49,978 bases of DNA from assembly GCA_000310025.1 (NCBI GenBank), contig FN649727.1, forward strand, positions 496,096 through 546,073. Reading direction: 5' to 3'. The translations under genes and the position numbers were made by a program. The stretch is from Ectocarpus siliculosus (lineage: Eukaryota; Sar; Phaeophyceae; Ectocarpales; Ectocarpaceae). Below, in pieces: positions 4,231-39,637 of the stretch; within the stretch, counting starts at the first letter, position 1; every line of letters begins with the position of its first letter. The notes under the pieces were generated by a model. The model was not told the DNA's origin. It worked only from the letters and a program-made list of their open reading frames with translations, and searched no databases.

Positions 4231-5580
4231 TTATCGCAGTCTTCTGGCTATATTTCTGGACGACCCGGCATTTTTCGCGCATAATCTTAGGTCGTGCAGC
4301 GTCCAGTTGACGCTCACGTGCTCGTGCCCGAGGTTCGCCTCCTGGATCTGCAACGCGCGCCGAAGGAGTGTTTCCGCCTCTCTTGATCGCCCCGCCTCTC
4401 GAAAAAACCGTCCCAACTCAATCAGCGTCCAGGAAATTTCCAGGTGGTGCGGAGGAAGCCTAGCTTCCTTGATCTGAAGCGCTCGCTCGAGAAGCGTTTG
4501 GGCCTCGGGCAATCGACCCGCTAACCGCGAACATCGACCCAGCTCATGAAGCGTGACGGCAACCTGTGGGTGGCAATCCCCCAGCTTGTCTTCCTTAATC
4601 TGGAGCGCCTGTTCGAACAAAAAGGCAGCGTCATTGATCTGCCGCGTCTGCAACATACACAAGCCCAGCTCGTGCAGCGTGCAGGCAACCTCAAGATTAT
4701 GGGCTCCCACGTTCGCTTTCTTCGTCTGGAGCGCTCGCTCCAGTAGTCGTCGAGCCTCCTCCGGTCGCCCTGCTGCTCGCGTACAGCGACCTAACTCGTG
4801 CAACGTCACGGCGACGCTCATATCGTAGGGTGCCAGAGCCTCCTTGATCGAGAGGGCTTGCCTCAGAAGCCCCTCCGCCTCTTCCACCCTCCCCGTCTGC
4901 CGCACGCATCGGGCCAGCTCGTGCAAGGTGACAGCGACACTCTTATCGTGGGGCCCTAACTTGGCCTCCTTGACCTGGACTACCCGGCTTAGACAAAGCT
5001 CCGCCTCTCTTGCTCGCCCCTGCTCCCGCAGGCACCGGCCTAGCCCCTCCAATGTCCAGACGACTTCGAGGTCACCGTGCGACAGCTTTTGTTCCTTGAT
5101 GCGGAGAGCTTGCCTGAAGAAGTTTTCGGCCTCCCCCAGCCGTCCAGACCCTCGAGCACACAGGGCCAGCTCGTCTAGAGCCACGGCAGCCTGGACGTGG
5201 TCTGCCCCCAGCTCCGCTACTACGTCATGGAGGTTTTGCGTGAGAAGCTCTTCCTTCGTGTGGTGCTGCATCGCGTCGATACTTGGTTCCGGAAACATTG
5301 CCATTTCGGGTTGAAGACCCGCCTGTCCAAAAGAATTCCCGGTAGAAAGAGTGGAGGGAGAGCGTTCAGCTATCCGGGAGTACACAATGCCAGAAACGAG
5401 GGAAGTCTCATTGCGAGAGCTTCCATGGCACAGAAATGGCGAAGTTACGTCGCAGATTGGTTTTGAAACGCCATGCCCGTACATTGGTCGGTTTCCACAT
5501 TCAAAATGTAAAACCGCGTACACACGACATGCTGGAGGAAGCTGACACGGCACGCTCGATCGAAGCGCAAGACTAGTCAT
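4231..5580 (-). CDS. Tetratricopeptide-repeat protein, kinesin-light-chain type, eight tandem repeats
   Basis: A 449-residue frame read from ATG 5578-5580 to TAA at 4231. From about residue 125 to the end there are eight head-to-tail repeats of 42 residues, the last one incomplete. Their consensus is VAVTLHELGRC.R.AGR..EA..LLERALQIKEA.LG. The third repeat lacks one residue before the next begins. No NB-ARC, kinesin or other catalytic domain is visible. The first ~95 residues look unlike the repeats. A pyrimidine-rich tract ending in CAG at 5323-5325, just before AGLQPEMAM, is a good splice acceptor, so the real protein may start in an undetected upstream exon and the first ~85 residues here may be intron. 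Such TPRs are protein-binding scaffolds. In brown algae, related TPR arrays are joined to NB-ARC domains and are thought to be recognition proteins; that role is only inferred here. Confidence 0.85.
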   Translation of the reverse strand: MTSLALRSSVPCQLPPACRVYAVLHFECGNRPMYGHGVSKPICDVTSPFLCHGSSRNETSLVSGIVYSRIAERSPSTLSTGNSFGQAGLQPEMAMFPEPSIDAMQHHTKEELLTQNLHDVVAELGADHVQAAVALDELALCARGSGRLGEAENFFRQALRIKEQKLSHGDLEVVWTLEGLGRCLREQGRAREAELCLSRVVQVKEAKLGPHDKSVAVTLHELARCVRQTGRVEEAEGLLRQALSIKEALAPYDMSVAVTLHELGRCTRAAGRPEEARRLLERALQTKKANVGAHNLEVACTLHELGLCMLQTRQINDAAFLFEQALQIKEDKLGDCHPQVAVTLHELGRCSRLAGRLPEAQTLLERALQIKEARLPPHHLEISWTLIELGRFFREAGRSREAETLLRRALQIQEANLGHEHVSVNWTLHDLRLCAKNAGSSRNIARRLR

Positions 5581-8059
5581 CTGTAGGAGGACGCTGGTGA
5601 TCCTATGCAACAAGCACGAGACGCTTCAAGGACTGCCTCGGGAGTTCGACAACAATGTCGCCAAACAGGACCTGAGTGTCGTCCTTGCACTAGTTCCTTC
5701 ATCCTTAAATAACCATTTGGCCTGAACTTTCGACCTCGCAATGCGCGTTAGACACACCGTTGGCGCCCTTTCGTCCTGCTTTACTCTCTCTTTTGTCTCC
5801 GCAAGCGGTCATTGGTATTTGGCTGGACCAGTGCTCCATGGTGTCGCGCATTATTAGCAAGTCACCTTGCAGTGAACTCGTACAGTAGGAAATGCGAGAA
5901 ATGATACTCCTTACCTATGCATAGCACAAGGATGTCAGTAGCGTGGGGTCAAACGTCGCCAAATCGTTAAGCATACCACGTGATTCGAGAAAAAATGACT
6001 GGAAGTTGTCGCAGTTCTCTGGAAGAACAACGACGACGCAGCGATATACACGTCTCCCCATGAAAGAAGTAGAGTTACACACGACATATCGGAGGGTGTC
6101 TTCCCCTGTATTGTTTTTCCTGGCCCCTTCAGACTTGCACCGGGACGTCATAAAAATCATAGATCACTACGAGTCTTGATTCCCGCTGGCATCCCCGTTT
6201 TCTCAGGGTGAAGAGATTCAACTAACTCCAGCATCCAACAGGTGTTCCCTCGACGTGTACTGTAGAGACTTCTACGCACTTTCCAAAAAGGCTGATCTCG
6301 AACGGGCAGTCTTTCTATGGTGTATTGAAAAATCACGCTGCTCCCACGAGACGTTTGCTTGTGAGCGGGTGCAGCGCACTCAAGTTGAATTGGTTTGTGC
6401 TTCGTTCTACTCTTTTATCTCACTGCAGTAGGTCAGCAAGACACGAAAACCATACATTGTAGCAGGAGGAGCATTAATCATAAGACATTGATGATACTCG
6501 ATGGCGATGGAAAGAGAGGTTCCGACGAGTGTAGCAATAGCTATACCGATCGTGGGTATTTTCGGTCAATGCCCACTCCTTGCGACGAAGGTATGTTATT
6601 GGCTGTGCTCACGGAAGGGTTCTCGGGCATCGCCTGGTGCCCAGTTAGTGTCTACAGTACCTCAAGCACAAGCACTACCCGCACCAAGTATACACAGGTA
6701 GGTCAGGTGTCATTTTGTTGGGCCCGCTAGTTTTCTGTCTGGAGTAGTCTCTTCCTGAACCCAAGCTCCATCAACCTCTGCTGAGAAGATGGCTTCTCGG
6801 GTTGGCACGGAACCCGCGATATAGGTGGACTCTATTGTTGTGTACATGGCCTGCGCGGACCAAAGGCGCACGATCATTTCCTGGCGGGCTGCCGCCAGAA
6901 TAATACGGGAGAGACAACGAAAACTGCATACGTCAGCTCAATCAGCCGAAGAGTCCGCATTGTTCAAAGTAACACATTCTGCCAACAGTAATCGATACGA
7001 ACTTCACTGGGCTGTCCAACACAGCTAATTGTCCCCGACGTACGAAAAGGACACCAAGTGACAACGAGCCAACTCTGACAAGCATTTTCATTTGAACATC
7101 CTGTCCCCGCACCTCGCGTCGTGGGCAGCGAGTTATTAATCTAGTATATGCTATATGCTACAAAGGACCTCGGGTGGTGATCGAGTCCTTGTGTGATATT
7201 TGGAAGGTGACCGGCACATAGACGGCAGCGACGGAACATCGGAGCCCCGAGGACCAACGGGCTGACCCCCATACCAAAAGTACACAACGACTGCTGTCTC
7301 GTTCGGCTTGGTCGGCATCGATGGATTACGTGGTCAGCATACCTAGACAGCGAGACCGCGATGCCACAAGTGCAACGTATGGTGATCCGATTGTGTCTAC
7401 TTCAGATTTCAACACTAGTGAGGTTGTGGTGGGGACATCCAACTTGTTCAACCGGGTGGTAAGCTTAAACTCAAAACACACCGCCGTCGGAATAATTGTT
7501 GAAGGTTCTGCAATTGAAGTCTTGCCGTCTGTATGTGCGTGTGTGTTCGTCCCATCAATTCTGGCATCACAGTCTACATACCTTTCGGTGTTCGTGTTCG
7601 CCTACCAGGCGGGGTCACACAGGAGGAGGGCATCACGGGGCCATTTTGTGTTTGTGGTTTGGACATATTGTTGCCGACTGAACGCGGTTCGGTCAACATT
7701 TTCGAGACAGAGGAAGAGAGTAGCGAAGCGACACGCTTGCGCGCATGTGAGAGAGACGTAGCGTGTGATACGAGGATAGCGTAAGAGTACCGGAATATCT
7801 CGTTCGTCGTTGGTCACATCGATTTCGCGTGTGCCTCGTAAACTACCGTGGAGTACCCCGTGGAGTACGCGGCAACTTTGATAGTTGAGACGAATCATAG
7901 ATTGAACCAGGGTGCCCCGTTGGTGCGTTGGAAACATCTAGAGCTCACTCGGTGTTGAGGGCCAATTACGACTCTACGGTTGGGCGTGACACATCAATAA
8001 AAAAAACAATCGATGCAAAGCGGTTCTCCCTTGGGGCATCTTCCCCTTGGAGAAGTCGC
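5581..8059. other. Gene-poor interval with one weak candidate exon
   Basis: No gene is recognised. One plus-strand stretch is noted: after a good acceptor (CCCGTTTTCTCAG, ending 6206) a frame stays open for 74 codons to TAG at 6429-6431. It contains FYALSKKADLERAVFLW, which matches no family I know and could be an exon or decayed transposon coding sequence. Other open frames at 6501-6701, 6825-7028 and 7321-7530 (+) have no motifs. No tandem repeat or tRNA is seen. Confidence 0.3.
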
Positions 8060-14587: not shown

Positions 14588-15027
14588 GAGTCGCATGAAG
14601 GGTGCGCTGCATCCTGCTAAGGATGTTCGGCATCTTGTGCTTACTTCCTAGCGTACGGATGACAGCTGTGTATGACTTTATTTATTTTCTGGTGCTTTCA
14701 CTTCCATAGGCAGTTAGTTATAAGCACGGGAGGGGCGGGGGGGGGGGGGGGGGGGGGGGGGGTCCGGATTCGATTATCCCCCCCTACTCTNNNNNNNNNN
14801 NNNNNNNNNNNNNNNNNNNNNNNNNNNNNNNNNNNNNNNNNNNNNNNNNNNNNNNNNNNNNNNNNNNNNNNNNNNNNNNNNNNNNNNNNNGAGTCGCATG
14901 AAGGGTGAGCTGCATCCTGCTAAGGGTTTTCGGCATCTTGTGCTTACTTACTTGCGTACGGATGACAGCTACGTATGACTTAATTTATTTTCTGGTGCTT
15001 TCACTTCCAGAGACAGTTGTAAGCACC
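14588..15027. repeat. Direct duplication flanking an assembly gap
   Basis: The ~140-base segment at 14588-14728 (starting GAGTCGCATGAAGGGTG) recurs at 14891-15027 with scattered substitutions and small indels. A G-run (about 14738-14762) and 100 Ns (14791-14890) lie between the copies. The second copy begins exactly at the end of the Ns. The copies differ at about one base in ten, so they look like two real repeat units rather than the same read placed twice. More units may be hidden in the gap. Confidence 0.75.
14791..14890. other. Assembly gap (100 N)
   Basis: Exactly 100 Ns, the conventional length for a gap of unknown size, directly after a long G-run. Confidence 0.98.
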
Positions 15028-28158: not shown

Positions 28159-31100
28159 TCAGAATAGCCCAAACAGACGAGCAAGGCTATCCTCCCCCGC
28201 CAGAGCGCTCTGGACGGACAGGCAGACTATCGCGATCATCGCCAAGCGACCGTTGTGGAGCTCTCGCTCACGCGCGTGGAATTTTCTCCGATCTTGCATC
28301 GCCTTTTCTTGGGCGCTGTTGGATTATTCCAATGGCGGCGGAAAGGCAGTAGTAGTACATGCCGAGGGAAATGGACAGCACACGGCCAAGAATCGGACAG
28401 GGGACAACGAAGCAGCGGCCGAAGTGTGTGGGGGGGGGTATGGGTCAGAGGATGGAAGATCAACACGATCGGTACGTACCACCCTATGAGAACTTGTGGT
28501 TCTTACAAACTTCTCGCTCTGTTTACACATTCCATATCTATCCCACACGAACAACCTTCGTCTACCACCCAAAAAAACACTATTTGTGCGTTGTCTTCAC
28601 GTAAAAAAATAATCCAACGCACAGCCAGCAGTAGGGGTAGTCTTGGGCACGGCGTCGATTGCTGCTGGCTGGCCCAACACTGTTCTGTTTTCTTGGTCGC
28701 ATTAATCTTCCGTACAAATCCGAAAGGCAAGATGAGTGGGTAGGGGACCTCGGGGAGATCAATCCTTCCGTGTCACCACGGAGTGGAAATGGACATGGCC
28801 CCTACCCGGATAAAGCCAACTCCAAGTGATGAACAAAAAAAAAAAAACTCACGTGAGGGCGTCCTTCTTATCCGGCAGAGTGGCCTCGTTGCGCTCGAAT
28901 CTATCCTGCAAGCTATTGTACACCAGAAACCCTCCCTCCAGCACGCCCATGACCATCACCACTCGCAGGGCCTGACGGGGAAAAGAGGCAGAGCAGCAGC
29001 AGGCGAGGCGTTAGGCTCGCGTGTGTTAGATCATGCCCACGTCATGGTCGTGTTTTAAGTTCGCTCCACTTACAACGCAAGACACAAGGCTCAGCCTCCT
29101 GCCACCGTCGTACTTCCAAAAACATGGCTCCCGCTACCCGCTGCCTAGAAAGACCTAGAATCGCACGTTAACGACATGCGCCAGGCACGTGCCCTGCAAG
29201 TCAACGAATCAAATAACTTGCCCCGACCCCACCCCTCTCACCTGCTGTGGAGAAAGGCTTGACAGGTACGCGAACGGGGACTCGTGCAGAGCCGCGAGGG
29301 CGTCGGGTTTGAGCATCGCCAGGCCGCTGATGCGTTCCATTTCGACCGCCGTCCACGCTAGCACCGCGAACATGCTGCGTGCGTTGCGTGTGCCACGTCG
29401 TGCCAAAAGTTTGCGTCGAAGCAAGCGGGCGGTGGGGGAGACGGTCGTGGTTAGTTGGGTTTCGTCAAGCGACAAAGAGAGAAATAAATACGCGTTGCAA
29501 AAGGGCTTGTAAAATGTAGAAGTACTTTGCACAGGACTTATATCCGAGAGAGAAGAGAGAGAGAGAGAGAGAGAGGAGACAGAAAGAGCGAGATGGAGAT
29601 CCACAGCACAGGTATTTGCTGCGCAGTTGGTTGGCCTCCGCTTTGTGGCTGCCTGCATCCGCCCGTTGTATATTCTGCCGGGGCACGACCTTGGAGGCCG
29701 CACAGACTCTGCAAGGGCGGATCTCATTGCGCTACCGACACGTCACGGAAAGAGAGGACTGGGGCCATGGGCAAATGACAAAACACACTCTTAGATTCCT
29801 ATACTGCCACGACTGCCGGGCGTAACATCCCCCGCCCCGCTCCCACCCCCCCCGGTCGCACCTGAGCCTAGCGTGCTGGAGTTCCACCTCTCTGGCGAGG
29901 CGTTTTTCGCCCTTTGTCATGAACGGGATCTCGTCGATCTCAATGAGGAGCTCGGGCTCTTCGCCGCTCCTCTGGGTCATGGGCATGGCGCCCATGTTGA
30001 GCGGCCACACCCCCGTGTGCACGTGGAGGGGGACGTCCACCGCGGGCCTCTCGCTCTCCGTCGTAGGCGTCGTCTCCACCTCCGCGGCCGCCGCCGCCGC
30101 AGCCGCCGCCGCAGCCGCCGTGGGGGGCTTCGCGGGGAGGAACGGGGCCGTAAGAATGGCCACCACGTCTCCGTTCTGGGAGAAAAAAAATAAAAAAGAA
30201 GGGAGCGTGCGGGGTCGGTATTGTGCTGCATCCATCATAAAGGAGGTATTGGTCAGCGCAAAAAAGTGTGGAGGAAGGGTAGCCGAGATGGGAACCAACA
30301 TGGACGCAAATTCCGTCCAGGATATCTCAAGACTGTTGTATCCGGCTCGTGCATGCGTACGCCAGCATGAGCTCCCTAGCACAGGGTAACGCAAGTGCTC
30401 CAAGTTAACCTTCACACAAGACACCCTCGGGAGAAGAAAAAAAGACAGCCGCGCTTACCCTTAGGGGCCGGTTGAGCGGGACGAGTCGGCCGTTGACGTA
30501 GGTCGCCGCAACGCGGCACGTCTTGGAGTCGTGGAGCTCCCTTGCCGCATCACGCATCTGCGGAGATCGAAATGAAGAGGGGGAGTGGTGGCCGGAGACG
30601 ACAGGGTCAGCGTTCCAAAGGGGGAGAGGGTTGGACGCGTAAACGTTTAGCCGGGAGGGCTTTGATTGTCGTCAAGAGAGCGCAACAAACACTCCAGGGA
30701 TTCTAGCGTGTAGCCACCAACAACACATGTACAAGACCCACAGCAGTATGTGCATGCGGTTCCTTCCCCAAATCCCACCAGTTTGGTCTTGCCGCATACA
30801 TGAGGTCGTTGATTGGTTGCTGATATCTGCGAGGTTGCTAAAAAGATGTAAAGGTTGGATAAGTTCAACACTTTTCCGCCAAGACCCGACCAACCCCGCT
30901 GATCTCGCTGCTCATGTTTTGGCGAGTCGACGATGTGGGCGTTTACCGCTCATGCTTACACTACTTGCCGTGTTAAACGTGCTTGGACAAACTTAATGCT
31001 CATGACAAAACCGCTGGCCGTGACGCACAAAAAAAAAAAAGATAGCAGCACCGCGAGCGAGTAACCGTGAGCTACACCACGAATCGATGGATACCCCATC

Positions 31101-33415
31101 ATACCACCTGTGGGTGGGTGTTTAGATTAGAGCGTTTGGGGGAAATCGACCAGCAGCTTACGAATGGCTTCGGACTCTCAGGTATACTCTGGAACATCTG
31201 TCACCTCTATCTATGTTATTTTTTTTGCTGATAAATGCACAAAAAACAACAAATTAATCTCTGCCACAGACAAGAATTTGGGACAGAAGAAGCAATCAGC
31301 GTCCATTTCACAGAAGTCGGCTACACGGCCGAACCGGAACAAAACGCTCACCGTGGCGTTCCCCGCGAGGTCCAAGATCTTCCCCTGGGGGTCGAACACG
31401 AACCTCCGCTCCTGCGCCCTGGTCAGCGAGTCCCTCACGTTCGCCGAGTACGTGTCTCCGCACCCCAGCGCGCACGCCTCCGCGCTGGTTTGCAGCTCAG
31501 CCAGCCACGGCAGGTTCTTTGGGTTGCCCGAGCTCCTCGCCACCTGGCTGGCCGCCATGCCGAAGTGGGCCACGCGGTCCATGTCGTCCGTGAGGATCTG
31601 CACCTCCACGGGGTGTCCCCTGAGCAGCACCGCCGTGTGCAGCGCGCGGTAGTTGTTGGGCTTCGGCACGGCGATGAAGTCCTCGACCCTGGGCGGGCTC
31701 ACCGGCGGCAGCAGGCCGTGGAGCGACTCCAGCAGGCCGTAGCAGGCCGCCCGCTCGCGCTCTGAGTTCTCGAACGAGCTTCTCACGACCCCGTCCGGCC
31801 CCGGCTTCGGGTGCAGCGAGAAGGAAACCTTGAAGTGCACGCAGTCCAGCACGTTGCCCAGCCGGCCGCCGTTCCTCGCCATCGACCGCCACACCGTGTA
31901 GGCGGGCTTGACGCCCATCGTCACCCGGAAGGAGCGCGCCCTGCCTTCCAGCACGGCGGTGTGCCCGAGCACCCGCTCCAACCGCCGTTGCTCGCTCTCC
32001 AAAAAATCCTTGGTGTGGCCCGTAGAGGCGGACCGGAGACGGAGGAGCTCCGTCACCCGGGCGTGCTCCTCAGGATGGAGGGTCTTGAAGCACATGTCCT
32101 CGAGCTCGGTCTTGATGTCCCAGAGCCCCATCCGTCTCGCCAGGGGCACGAATACACCCATCGTCTCCTGCGCGATGCGCACCTGCTTGTGCTGCGGCAT
32201 GGCGCCCAGCGTCCGCATGTTGTGCAGCCGGTCCGAGAGCTTCACCACCAGCACCCGCCAGTCCTTGCTCATGGCGATCAGCATGTGCCGCAGGTTGTCC
32301 GCCTGCTTGGCGCCCTCCGCCCGCTGCTGGGCCGTGCTCCCGCCCATCTCGTAGTCGCTTGCCGTGAACGCCGACACGCGCCCGGGGATCTTGCTCAGCT
32401 TGGTCTCCCCCTCGACGATGCGCCGCACCGTCGACCCGAACTGCGTCTCGATGTCCTCGAAGGCCAGCCTGGTGTCCTCCACGGTGTCGTGTAGCAGAGC
32501 CGCCACCAGCGTCTCCGCGTCCATCCTGAGCCCCGCCAGGATCCCCATCACCTCCACCGGGTGCATGATGAACGGCTCGCCGGACTTCCTCCGCTGCCCC
32601 TGGTGGGCGTGGTACGCCACCTGCACCGCCACCCCGATCCAGTTCTGCTCATCCGGCGACAGGTAGGACGCGTCCTCGAGCACCCGTCGGTTGAACCCGT
32701 CCAGCTCCACCGCCTCTGCGTCCGTCACGCACCACCCGAACGTCGCGCTCAGCTGCAGCAGGCCCCGGTTCAGGTGGGAAAGCTGCTCGTCCGCCGTCAG
32801 GGTCCGCAGCTCCCACGGCTGAACCGGGGCCGAGGACCGACCGGAGTCACCCACCAACCACTCCGCCTTCAGCCGCTTGTCCTCGTCGGCCGACAGGCTC
32901 CGCTTCCACGCGCCAGTGCCGCCGCTACCTGCGGCCCCGGCGCCGCCGCTGCCGGCGCCGCCAGCGGCAGACTCGTCGCCTGCGGGGTACGCCGAAGACC
33001 GCAGCGCCACCGACCTCACCTCACCCCCTGGGTGTTCCGCCCTCCTACTACCGCTCGCCCCGCCTCCCCCCGCCCCGCCGCCGTCGCCCCCTAGCCTCGT
33101 TTTCGTTCTCCTCTTGCGCTGCTTGCGCGAACTATTGCTGCTACATCTGTTGCCCGACCCCCACGCGTCCCGCCCGCCTCCGCTTACGCGCGCCGGCCTA
33201 TCTCTGTCGTCGTCTGTCGAAGCTCCTCCGGCCATCATCACTCGAATTCTATTGCGGTCGGTCCTGGAAGACACCCCGCTGTTGCGGCAGGGCGCGTGTC
33301 TCCCTGTGTCGACCCCACAGCCGGAAACGGTCGAAGACGACGATGCCATGAACCCTTCCGCTCTGCCGAAGAGCGACGCCGTGAGGAGCGCGTATACCAC
33401 TGATGATGAAAACAT
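28159..33415 (-). CDS. Plastid RelA/SpoT homologue fused to a three-helix LHC/FCP-like domain
   Basis: Exons are 31352-33415, 30459-30557, 29862-30175, 29242-29374, 28853-28971 and 28159-28315, all GT-AG and in phase (961 residues). ATG is at 33413-33415 and TGA at 28159-28161. Residues 1-21 form a signal peptide followed by Phe22, a heterokont plastid leader. HD (p)ppGpp-hydrolase domain: H285-P, HDTVEDT (309-315) and DRLHNMRTL (395-403), all intact. Synthetase domain ~490-625: EDFIAVPKPNNYRALHTAV and EVQILT with E604, but the R-x-K G-loop motif is not conserved. TGS domain ~671-735 ends VNGRLVPL...NGDVVAIL. A 12-alanine linker follows, then an LHC domain. Helix 1 has E819-x-x-H822-x-R824 (EVELQHARLSM), helix 2 spans ~871-889 with E882, and helix 3 has E928, N931, R933 and Q945 (ELHNGRLAM). 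No ACT or zinc-finger module is seen. Hydrolysis and/or synthesis of (p)ppGpp at the thylakoid is inferred. Confidence 0.92.
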
Positions 33416-33600: not shown

Positions 33601-33872
33601 AATAGCACATGCCAGGGGCGGGCGTGATACGACATGGGAGGGAAGAGCAGCGCGCGCGCGGGGGGGGGGGGGGGGGGAGGGGAAACTNNNNNNNNNNNNN
33701 NNNNNNNNNNNNNNNNNNNNNNNNNNNNNNNNNNNNNNNNNNNNNNNNNNNNNNNNNNNNNNNNNNNNNNNNNNNNNNNNNNNNNNNGTCTTCCGAAATA
33801 CCCCTTCCCAGGGGGGGGGGTGTTACAACATGGAAGGAAAAACAAGCCCCCGCGGGGGGGGGGGGGGGGGGG
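33601..33872. repeat. G-tract minisatellite interrupted by a gap
   Basis: The unit before the gap (GCGTGATACGACATGGGAGG, GAAGAGCAGC, then a long G-run) and the one after it (GTGTTACAACATGGAAGG, AAAAACAAGC, then a long G-run) align over ~55 bases. This is a second G-run minisatellite type, distinct from that at 15222 although both share TTACAAC. Unit number is unknown because of the Ns. Confidence 0.6.
33688..33787. other. Assembly gap (100 N)
   Basis: Exactly 100 Ns, a conventional gap of unknown size, again next to a G-run. Confidence 0.98.
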
Positions 33873-36147: not shown

Positions 36148-39100
36148 ATGGCCACGCTTCAACTCTCCGACCCGCACCAGAGCATCAAGGAGGAGGGGAC
36201 TACTGCTGTACGCTGCCCGCTTTGGCGGCAGGTGCAAGAAGAAGCGCGCAACATGGTAGGTGCATGGGCATGCATCCGATCGGGTAGTTGCGCGGGATGA
36301 AGCAAGTGTGAAACGTGCCATTTGCAATCCAAGTGTGAATGAGCCCGCGTTGATGCCGCTTGCGGAGCAACGCGGGTGGGTGTCGTTCGTCATTGACGTG
36401 GTCCGCCAAAGCATACATAGCACACAGCAGCCCGATACCCCTGGCGTTTTGGGTTGAAGGGTTGAAAAAACTCGCACATCGCACCCTCACGGTAATCTGA
36501 AGGTTTGGTTTCTTGTACCACCCTATTGCGTTGACCTCAGAGGGAGGGAGCATTTTGAGCCAGAAGCTGCTGGAGGAAAATATACAGCAGTTTCTTGTAC
36601 AGCATAGATATGCAGCTGCTGGTATGTAGATGTCGTGCATGAGGTGTCTACAGCAGTAGTCAAGTCGTGTGTGTGTGTATTAGTATGTCGTTAGCGACAC
36701 CGCCATGTCACAGACGCTCGTATTGGTGGCGCTGATGATCACGCGACAGAGTCAACTACTGCCGGCGTCTTGCTTGCGGCAGCACACTGCTGTGTAGCTT
36801 CGTTCGAATCTGAAAAAAATGTGCGGCACGGCGTTCTGAAACACAAAACATGTGTCCCGGGACTGCTGTCTAGGCGAAGGGGATACAGGCCCCAGTACAT
36901 GGGAGGCCCGCAAGCAACACCACAAGGTGTTGTGAGCTAGGCTCAGAACTTCTTTGCTGCGGCTGATGTGACCTGTTTTCTTTGTTCATCATTTCTCCGT
37001 CCTTATGGCCAAACAGTCATCTTGCCGACTATTAGCACTTTCTCGTCATTCCGCCCGTGGCCTCTCTTCTTCCTGAAAATTTCGGTGCATGCGTGTTTAA
37101 CCCAGCCTTGAGGTTCCACCAATGGACGGTTCTCAGAAAGTATTACACGCTCGCGAATATATCCTGGTCGAAGGGATGTGTTAAATTCTGTACAGGGAGG
37201 GTTGAGGGACATTTGTGGGTGGATGTGTGCTTGTTGTGCGTTTGCGTCCAGTCTACGTTGAATGTATATGCTATAATAGGGCTAATTCACACCTTCTTTT
37301 AGTATTTTGTATTGACGTCGTGCTACTGCTGTATGTACATGTACTTCTAGCATAGCCAGTGGACACACAACAAGAGCTGGATATTAGACGTACACCGAGA
37401 AAAAGGGGGCGCCAGCTGGAACAAGAACGCTTATGCATAAAATGCACCAGCACGTGCCCTGCAAGGCTCTGCTGGGTCCGGTGTGTCTGTGTTTCGCGTG
37501 CTATGTATTATTCTTGACAGGACCCACATCGCAGTGTCTTGTTGACGACCTGCTGGAGTTTGATACTGTTCTTGTTAGATAACACTCCAGTTTATGGAAC
37601 ACCGTGATCACTCTTGTTTAAACAATGATGTGCACACACGACCACGCTTGCCTATAATATGAACCGGCGGGGCGTGCAATGCTCAAACTATCTTATTTAG
37701 CGTAATCAGGAATCGTGTGCGGACGAAAGGGGCCCCCTTGCTTGCAAATTTCTTCCGTCCGCCGTTCACCGGCCCCTAGCGAAGCCCTCACCCCGGCAAC
37801 AACAACCTAGAGATCCGCGTCCTGATACGCTCTGAACGTAGCACGTGAGGGTGCTGGCAAATGGCGACTGACGATAACCCCCGCCCCGCCCCCCCGCGCG
37901 CGCCACCCCCGATCCCGACCTCGTCTCACTAAAGATGAAAGACGAGCCCGCCCTCGCACGTTACTTTAGGATGACTCTCCTCACGTACGACACCATGGAA
38001 CGAGCCCTCGCGTATCACTTGGCCTGCAAGCTCGGGAACGACTCCGTGTCGATGGAGACTTGGGACGAGCTGCTGGCGGACGTGCTGGAGGCACACACGG
38101 ACCACCTGGGCGTGTTTTTCCGCACCGATCTAGTCGCCATCCTCACAAGAGACCCCGCGGCCGAGGGCCCGGCGCACGCCTTCCTGAACTTCAAGGGGTA
38201 CCTCGGCCTGCAAGCGAGCCGCATCGGGCACGTCTTGTGGAAGGAGGACCGTAAGTCTCTCGCGCTGGCGATCCAGAGCCGCGTGTCGGAGGTGTTCGGG
38301 ATGGACATACACCCCGGCTGCCAAGTCGGGGCCGGCGTAATGATCGACCACGCCACCGGCGTTGTTTTCGGCGAGACGGCCGTCGTGGGCGACAACTGCA
38401 CGTTCCTGCACGGCGTGACTCTCGGCGGCACGGGAAAGAGCCGCGGAGACCGACATCCCAAGCTGGGCTGCGGGATTTTAGTTGGCGCCGGCTCCATGAT
38501 TCTAGGAAACATCAGCGTGGGGGACGGCTGTAAGGTATGTTGCGCGCACCAAGGTGTCCCGGGTGAGGCGAATGAGAGGTGGGGGGCGGAGGGGGTCCTG
38601 TCGGATAGAGAGGGATAAGTGCTTAGGGTTGTTGACGATATTTTTGCTGAGGGAGAAGGGGAGTCGGCCATTGTTCAATCACTTCGCCGCAGGTACTTCC
38701 TTGAATGTTGCCAATTGCGGCAGAAAGCGGTGGCTTCTTGTTTCTAGGACCAGGGAAAGGCTGCCAACGAATGCCGTTTCAATGATTGACGTGGATGAGA
38801 GAAGCATGTGCTCTTTGATGCACCGTTTGCCGAGAACGCATCAGGGGAACAACTTTGCGCGGCAGACAATTCCATCATTGGGGCTTTGCGCACTCGTGAC
38901 AACTTGGTTTTGCGGCATTCTCTGCCGAGAGTGAAGCGGGCGAGGTCTTTCCTACCCTATATCGTGCTCCCGATCGCTTCGGGATAGCAGCATGAGGCAT
39001 TTCGCTGTTCGTCGTCCTACACACAAGTGTGCGCTCCACAAACCGCCCGTGAAATGTCACCTTTCACGAGGATAACCAATCTTCTCTCCCCCCTCCACCC

Positions 39101-39433
39101 CCACCCGCGACCACTCCTCGCATGCCGTTCTTGCTCCAGGTAGCAGCCGGGTCCGTGGTCCTCAGGAATTTACCCGCCCAGGTTGTCGCAGCAGGAGTGC
39201 CGGCCAAAATCATCGGCACCGCCACAGAGGGAAAGCCATCGGAAACTGTGGACCAAAACCTCAAGCACGTGCGGTACCACAGCATGGTTGGAAACGGAAA
39301 CGGCAAGCAGAATGGGAAAAATGGCGGTTCAGGGACGGGTCGGGCGGGGGCGCCCGAGGATTCGCGAACCGACCCGCGCCGGGAGACTTTGGGCATGCGA
39401 GGGATAGAAGTCAAGAAGCGCAGCTTCTTGTGA
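36148..39433 (+). CDS. Serine O-acetyltransferase
   Basis: Makes O-acetylserine from serine and acetyl-CoA, the carbon skeleton for cysteine synthesis. Exons are 36148-36255, 37935-38534 and 39140-39433, all phase 0, giving 333 residues. Exon 1 (36 codons) ends CPLWRQVQEEARNM. Joined to MKDEPALARYFRMTLL it gives the usual family spacing between LW..I..EA and EP.L, which supports the 1.7-kb first intron. The alpha-helical N-domain includes RDPA and the substrate-site FLNFKGYLGLQASRIGHVLW. The left-handed beta-helix carries MIDHATGVVFGETAVVG with catalytic Asp174-His175, then HGVTLGGTGKSRGDRHP and VPAKIIG. The C-terminal tail beyond VPAKIIG is long and Gly/Arg-rich and ends KRSFL. It lacks the terminal Ile by which most of these enzymes bind cysteine synthase. 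The last 39 residues come from the first unit of a tandem repeat. The compartment is not clear: no convincing transit peptide is seen. Confidence 0.92.
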
Positions 39434-39637
39434 TCAGCGACAGAAATCGCTGTCGTTTTTTCTGCCAAGCGGAGTGGGAAAAATGTCGGTTCAGGGACGG
39501 GTCGGGCGGGGGCGCCCGAGCATTCGCGAACCGACCCGCGCCGGGAGACTTTGGGCATGCGAGGGATCGAAGCCAAGCAGCGCAGCTTCTTGTGATAAGT
39601 GGCAGAAATCGCTGTCGTTTTTTCTGCCAAGCGGAGT
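39314..39637 (+). repeat. 162-bp tandem duplication covering the 3' end of the acetyltransferase CDS
   Basis: Units are 39314-39475 and 39476-39637, about 95% identical, both starting GGGAAAAATG. The unit length is a multiple of three. The true stop codon lies in unit 1, and unit 2 repeats the same tail and stop in the same frame (V for G, H for D, A for V, Q for K). After the stop, each unit holds an inverted repeat: CAGAAA/TTTCTG in both, and CGACAG/CTGTCG only in unit 1. Confidence 0.85.

Follow-up and report, generated by a model that had tools for sequence, protein, structure and literature searches.

On contig FN649727.1 (assembly GCA_000310025.1), the genome of the brown alga Ectocarpus siliculosus carries a gene in which a RelA/SpoT homologue (RSH) is continued by a light-harvesting complex (LHC)-like domain. 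This fusion gene lies in a stretch of 49,978 nucleotides (positions 496,096 to 546,073 of the forward strand), hereafter the window, whose numbering is used throughout. As judged from its sequence, its product is probably a plastid enzyme of the RSH1 type, which would serve chiefly, if not exclusively, to hydrolyse (p)ppGpp and which a divergent LHC-like tail of three helices would hold in the thylakoid. The architecture itself is not new, since a Chlorophyll A-B binding domain has been reported in one sentence for an RSH1 of E. siliculosus (Avilan et al., 2019; PMC6881373; this and the other articles cited were available as excerpts), and the two genes are probably identical or closely orthologous. 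In support of this, three E. siliculosus primers, taken from the 16 given in the excerpts of PMC3879662, each have exactly one perfect match in the genome, where about 0.0003 matches per primer would be expected in random sequence. A preliminary description of the window, whose author knew of no described RSH with such a tail, has to be corrected on this point. Added here are a residue pattern biased towards hydrolysis, its reverse in a second RSH and a description of how the tail is built. As far as searches show, the function of the fusion is unexplored in the literature: besides PMC6881373, no mention of an RSH-LHC fusion was found in the excerpts retrieved, including those of PMC9664231, and a word search of the excerpted 2022 review PMC10107265 found neither Ectocarpus nor brown algae.

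The gene is organized as follows, in agreement with the six phase-consistent exons and 961 residues proposed in the preliminary description:
33415-28159, minus strand: RSH-LHC fusion gene, six exons, five GT-AG introns with consistent phases, 961 amino acids, TGA stop
33344..33415, minus strand: N-terminal leader, residues 1-24, signal-peptide-like, with Phe after AEG (by eye)
31352..33415, minus strand: exon 1, residues 1-688, with the leader, the HD hydrolase domain, the synthetase-like domain and the start of TGS
30459..30557, minus strand: exon 2, residues 689-721, middle of TGS
29862..30175, minus strand: exon 3, end of TGS, Ala-rich linker (residues 738-755) and start of LHC helix 1
29242..29374, minus strand: exon 4, remainder of LHC helix 1 and the loop after it
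28853..28971, minus strand: exon 5, LHC helix 2 (residues 870-887, with E882) and a loop
28159..28315, minus strand: exon 6, LHC helix 3 (residues 926-948, with E928, N931, R933 and Q945), C terminus and TGA stop

Exon 3 is the physical link between the RSH part and the LHC part: it lies inside a single open frame of 240 amino acids which spans both the end of TGS and the start of helix 1, and the preliminary argument built on this exon holds. According to Pfam, the TGS match crosses the exon 1/2 and 2/3 junctions, LHC helix 1 crosses junction 3/4, and a single Chloroa_b-bind match contains junctions 4/5 and 5/6. Because every junction falls within the TGS or the LHC match, all five splices are bridged by homology, and the fusion of the two parts is confirmed in the DNA. 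At third codon positions, exons 1-5 reach a GC content of 0.79-0.89 and exon 6 one of only 0.66; intron GC is 0.49-0.56. The start codon was picked by eye, and a gap of 100 N (33688-33787) is present upstream of the gene. By eye as well, residues 1-24, with their Phe after AEG, look like the initial half of a bipartite plastid leader under the motif rule for such leaders. It is very improbable that the model joins two neighbouring genes or transcripts, the RSH stopping within or ahead of exon 3 and the LHC-like protein being encoded on its own: the weaker coding bias of exon 6 would fit such a junction, but the Met residues of exon 3 have no plastid-import leader behind them (by eye), and the E. 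siliculosus RSH1 in the literature shares the architecture (PMC6881373). Two adjacent genes, one for the LHC and one for the RSH, were rejected in view of the frame shared within exon 3 and of the domain-internal splices.

Four domains were identified by Pfam in the spliced product:
32120..32629, minus strand: HD_4 (p)ppGpp hydrolase domain, residues 263-432, E 6.5e-48
31547..31912, minus strand: RelA_SpoT synthetase-like domain, residues 502-623, E 2.2e-11, with conserved positions eroded
30149..31399, minus strand: TGS domain, residues 673-730, E 5.2e-12, split over exons 1, 2 and 3
28207..29902, minus strand: Chloroa_b-bind domain, residues 813-946, E 5.1e-13, profile positions 28-161 of 162, exons 3-6

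All four are above their curated cut-offs, follow one another in the order first described, and have E-values that exclude a chance match; the last one falls within residues 810-961, where the preliminary description expected an LHC score. No ACT domain was found in the 961 residues (Pfam, E up to 10); according to Avilan et al. (2019; PMC6881373), most members of the extended RSH1 family, but not every one, carry TGS and ACT. The RelA/SpoT models of NCBIfam match the fusion protein below their cut-offs, and no NCBIfam model matches the LHC-like tail. Regarding exon 1, its closest solved relative is the Rel protein under 6s2v, which we take to be Thermus Rel, with 283 bits vs 219 for the next group. 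This agrees with the Deinococcus-Thermus affinity stated for RSH1 in PMC6881373, and it is this article, not a tree, that the RSH1 label follows here.

The hydrolase part is well preserved. Five bacterial proteins with hydrolase-type HD domains served as references, namely E. coli SpoT and four relatives (loci L005-L008, all bacterial) found in a collection of genome contigs and used as references only; in residues 263-432, 41 of the 51 columns invariant among them are kept. The eight positions which we take to be catalytic, as assigned from the Rel literature, are all kept (R276, H285, H309, D310, E313, D314, D395 and N399). With E. coli RelA as a sixth reference, the synthetase part (residues 506-630) retains 22 of 34 invariant columns, the 12 lost ones including R529K, R608L, E617H, H623S, W624Q and Y626A; the wording "synthetase-like" of the preliminary description was thus apt. 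The Lys-to-Glu change at 578 says little about synthetase loss, since Asp occupies this position in E. coli RelA and that enzyme is an active synthetase. In four placements, Met500-Gly501 stand where the ATP site would have its Gly-Arg pair (the six-sequence profile, the start of the Pfam match, the alignment with 6s2v Rel and BLASTP with E. coli SpoT). Avilan et al. (2019; PMC6881373) connect an altered ATP pocket in Arabidopsis RSH1 with the loss of this ATP-site Arg.

Several observations count against a hydrolase-only enzyme. MAFFT, together with BLASTP against L005, L007 and L008, inserts nine residues and aligns G491-R492 with the Gly-Arg pair; the gaps differ again when E. coli RelA or L006 is used for BLASTP. 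Moreover, D524, K585, Y589, E604 and Q606 are kept in the synthetase part, and residual (p)ppGpp synthesis is therefore possible. The red RSH1 clade has in addition been suggested to be bifunctional, as shown for PtRSH1 from Phaeodactylum (Avilan et al., 2019; PMC6881373). These points lend themselves to another explanation, namely that the enzyme is bifunctional like PtRSH1 and that its membrane tail switches between synthesis and hydrolysis. We regard it as improbable, given that more than a third of the invariant synthetase columns are changed, R608L, E617H and H623S among them, and that the profile, Pfam and 6s2v Rel alignments read Met-Gly at the ATP site. On balance, loss of the synthetase function is favoured, not proven.

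A second RSH gene offers a mirror image. When the genome (189,456,909 bases in 492 contigs) was searched with the HD_4 and RelA_SpoT profiles, each found two places, the fusion gene and the following one:
contig C26:292500-300500: second RSH gene (L009), synthetase residues kept, hydrolase residues lost

No further RSH locus was found with these two profiles, in a genome search which can miss weak matches; the exon 1 protein matched weakly at two more places, one with two stops at E 0.03 and the other at E 0.22. For the C26 RSH, exon pieces were joined roughly, the first of them being a weak match (E 0.27). In this assembled sequence, 25 of 34 synthetase columns are kept, including 11 of the 12 lost in the fusion gene, while 22 of the 38 hydrolase columns visible in the joined pieces are lost. 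Half of the eight catalytic positions are visible and all four of these are changed, the HD and ED positions being in the unplaced part. No LHC tail was seen on this RSH, whose sequence has no modelled 3' end. Its first exon frame opens with a signal-peptide-like leader (MAFSRAALAAAAVAALVAPEPACGF).

The tail of the fusion protein contains three helices, with E..[HN].R motifs in helix 1 (E819-R824) and helix 3 (E928-R933); two such motifs more than 60 residues apart occurred in 12 of 20,000 shuffled tails. The main helix residues are kept, i.e., E819, H822 and R824 in helix 1, E882 in helix 2, and E928, N931, R933 and Q945 in helix 3. Its solved relatives are LHC and FCP chains, the top single-domain match being 9ygv FCP7 (E 8.4e-9). 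By its Pfam match and helix motifs, the tail thus qualifies as a predicted divergent member of the LHC/FCP superfamily. Among the 29 genome matches listed, four are the fusion gene itself and the other 25 are LHC places 25-36% identical to the tail, so that no other copy above 36% is found among them. Elsewhere in the genome, many LHC-like matches are clustered on contigs C92, C232, C488 and C16; on the first three of these contigs many matches have equal scores, a pattern resembling that of genes copied recently in tandem or duplicated in the assembly. A single match to the fusion came from viral contigs (L010), and was rejected as a related fusion: it is a 39-residue chance match on a contig without RSH, and a tblastn search using the full-length protein yielded nothing beyond E 0.001.

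The tail also has features that fit an LHC fold less well. GFDPL-type motifs, which ordinary LHC proteins possess, are absent before helices 1 and 3 in the alignment with LHCs of the same genome, and helix 2 has Arg873 where these LHCs carry Gln. The hydropathy peaks of helices 3, 2 and 1 are 1.58, 1.41 and 1.11, the last being lower than the 1.37 of a stretch of the soluble HD domain; the helix 1 call rests hence on homology, not on hydropathy. The preliminary claim of a complete LHC domain stands for the three helices and the Pfam match and is slightly strong with regard to the missing GFDPL-type motifs.

Two further explanations of the tail have to be weighed on this evidence. It could be a membrane anchor or an assembly tag only, with its helix-pairing residues kept and no pigment bound. 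This would be consistent with its strong divergence from the other LHC places listed, with the missing GFDPL-type motifs and with the single copy found; the ligand residues kept in helices 1 and 3, however, exceed the needs of an anchor, and we consider this explanation plausible, short of probable. Alternatively, the tail might be a true pigment-binding sensor, through which the chlorophyll or light state would alter the activity or lifetime of the hydrolase and couple plastid gene expression to antenna assembly. Most of the LHC chlorophyll-binding or helix-pairing residues are indeed kept, and type II ferrochelatase provides a precedent for an enzyme with a C-terminal chlorophyll a/b-binding (CAB) motif, whose removal greatly raised turnover (PMC3563542). 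Nevertheless, direct pigment binding was not evident in that enzyme (PMC3563542), and the tail lacks both the GFDPL-type motifs and the helix 2 Gln, making a sensor of this kind rather unlikely.

Returning to a thylakoid-held hydrolase, a mechanism can be sketched. The N-terminal side of helix 1 of LHC proteins faces the stroma; the hydrolase would therefore sit at the stromal face of the thylakoid, close to the plastid ribosomes and RNA polymerase inhibited by (p)ppGpp. The C26 RSH, with its opposite residue pattern, would supply (p)ppGpp, and with a synthetase-type RSH elsewhere, removal of the alarmone would be tied to the membrane. Alarmone turnover might then depend on the amount of tail folded and stable in the thylakoid. 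The preliminary description had proposed that alarmone turnover is anchored to, or gated by, the photosynthetic membrane: from the sequence, anchoring can fairly be inferred and gating by light or pigment is possible. In a more speculative and, in our opinion, doubtful extension, the alarmone cycle would be spatially split between a synthetase-only C26 RSH in the stroma and a hydrolase-only RSH1 kept in the thylakoid by an antenna fold that binds pigment; the abundance or activity of the hydrolase would be set by the supply of chlorophyll and by antenna assembly. If this were true, the membrane would license plastid gene expression: with pigment present the alarmone would be removed, and with pigment lacking it would rise. 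In plants and diatoms, (p)ppGpp slows plastid gene expression and photosynthesis, and the way in which photosynthesis acts back on alarmone levels is, on our reading, not settled (PMC8252717; PMC10107265). A hydrolase physically fused to an antenna fold would connect photosynthetic status and alarmone levels directly.

Other features were noticed in the window, in which no RNA family was found at gathering scores:
4234-5625, minus strand: open frame of 464 amino acids with TPR repeats (TPR_12, E 2.2e-56)
37878-38615, plus strand: open frame with a serine acetyltransferase N-terminal domain and hexapeptide repeats
14791-14890 and 33688-33787: gaps of exactly 100 N, adjoining G-rich runs
39304-39637: tandem repeat of two 162-base copies (94% identity; unit length divisible by three), within open frames on both strands, with no Pfam match

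Compared with known systems, the fusion protein is nearest to the published E. siliculosus RSH1, with which it shares the RSH1 class, the brown algal origin and an antenna domain of C-terminal type, the excerpts of PMC6881373 containing no analysis of the tail, residues or function of that protein. PtRSH1 is likewise a red-lineage plastid RSH1 with HD, synthetase and TGS domains (PMC6881373). In PtRSH1, TGS is followed by helical, zinc-finger and ACT modules and the enzyme is bifunctional, whereas in the fusion protein TGS is followed by the LHC-like domain and the synthetase is eroded. Arabidopsis RSH1 has similarly kept the hydrolase and lost the synthetase, and differs in that no LHC tail is mentioned for it in the excerpts (PMC6881373). 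Finally, type II ferrochelatase resembles the fusion protein as an enzyme with a C-terminal membrane motif of the LHC family (PMC3563542), but it is another enzyme from another pathway, and its motif forms one helix where the tail described here has three.

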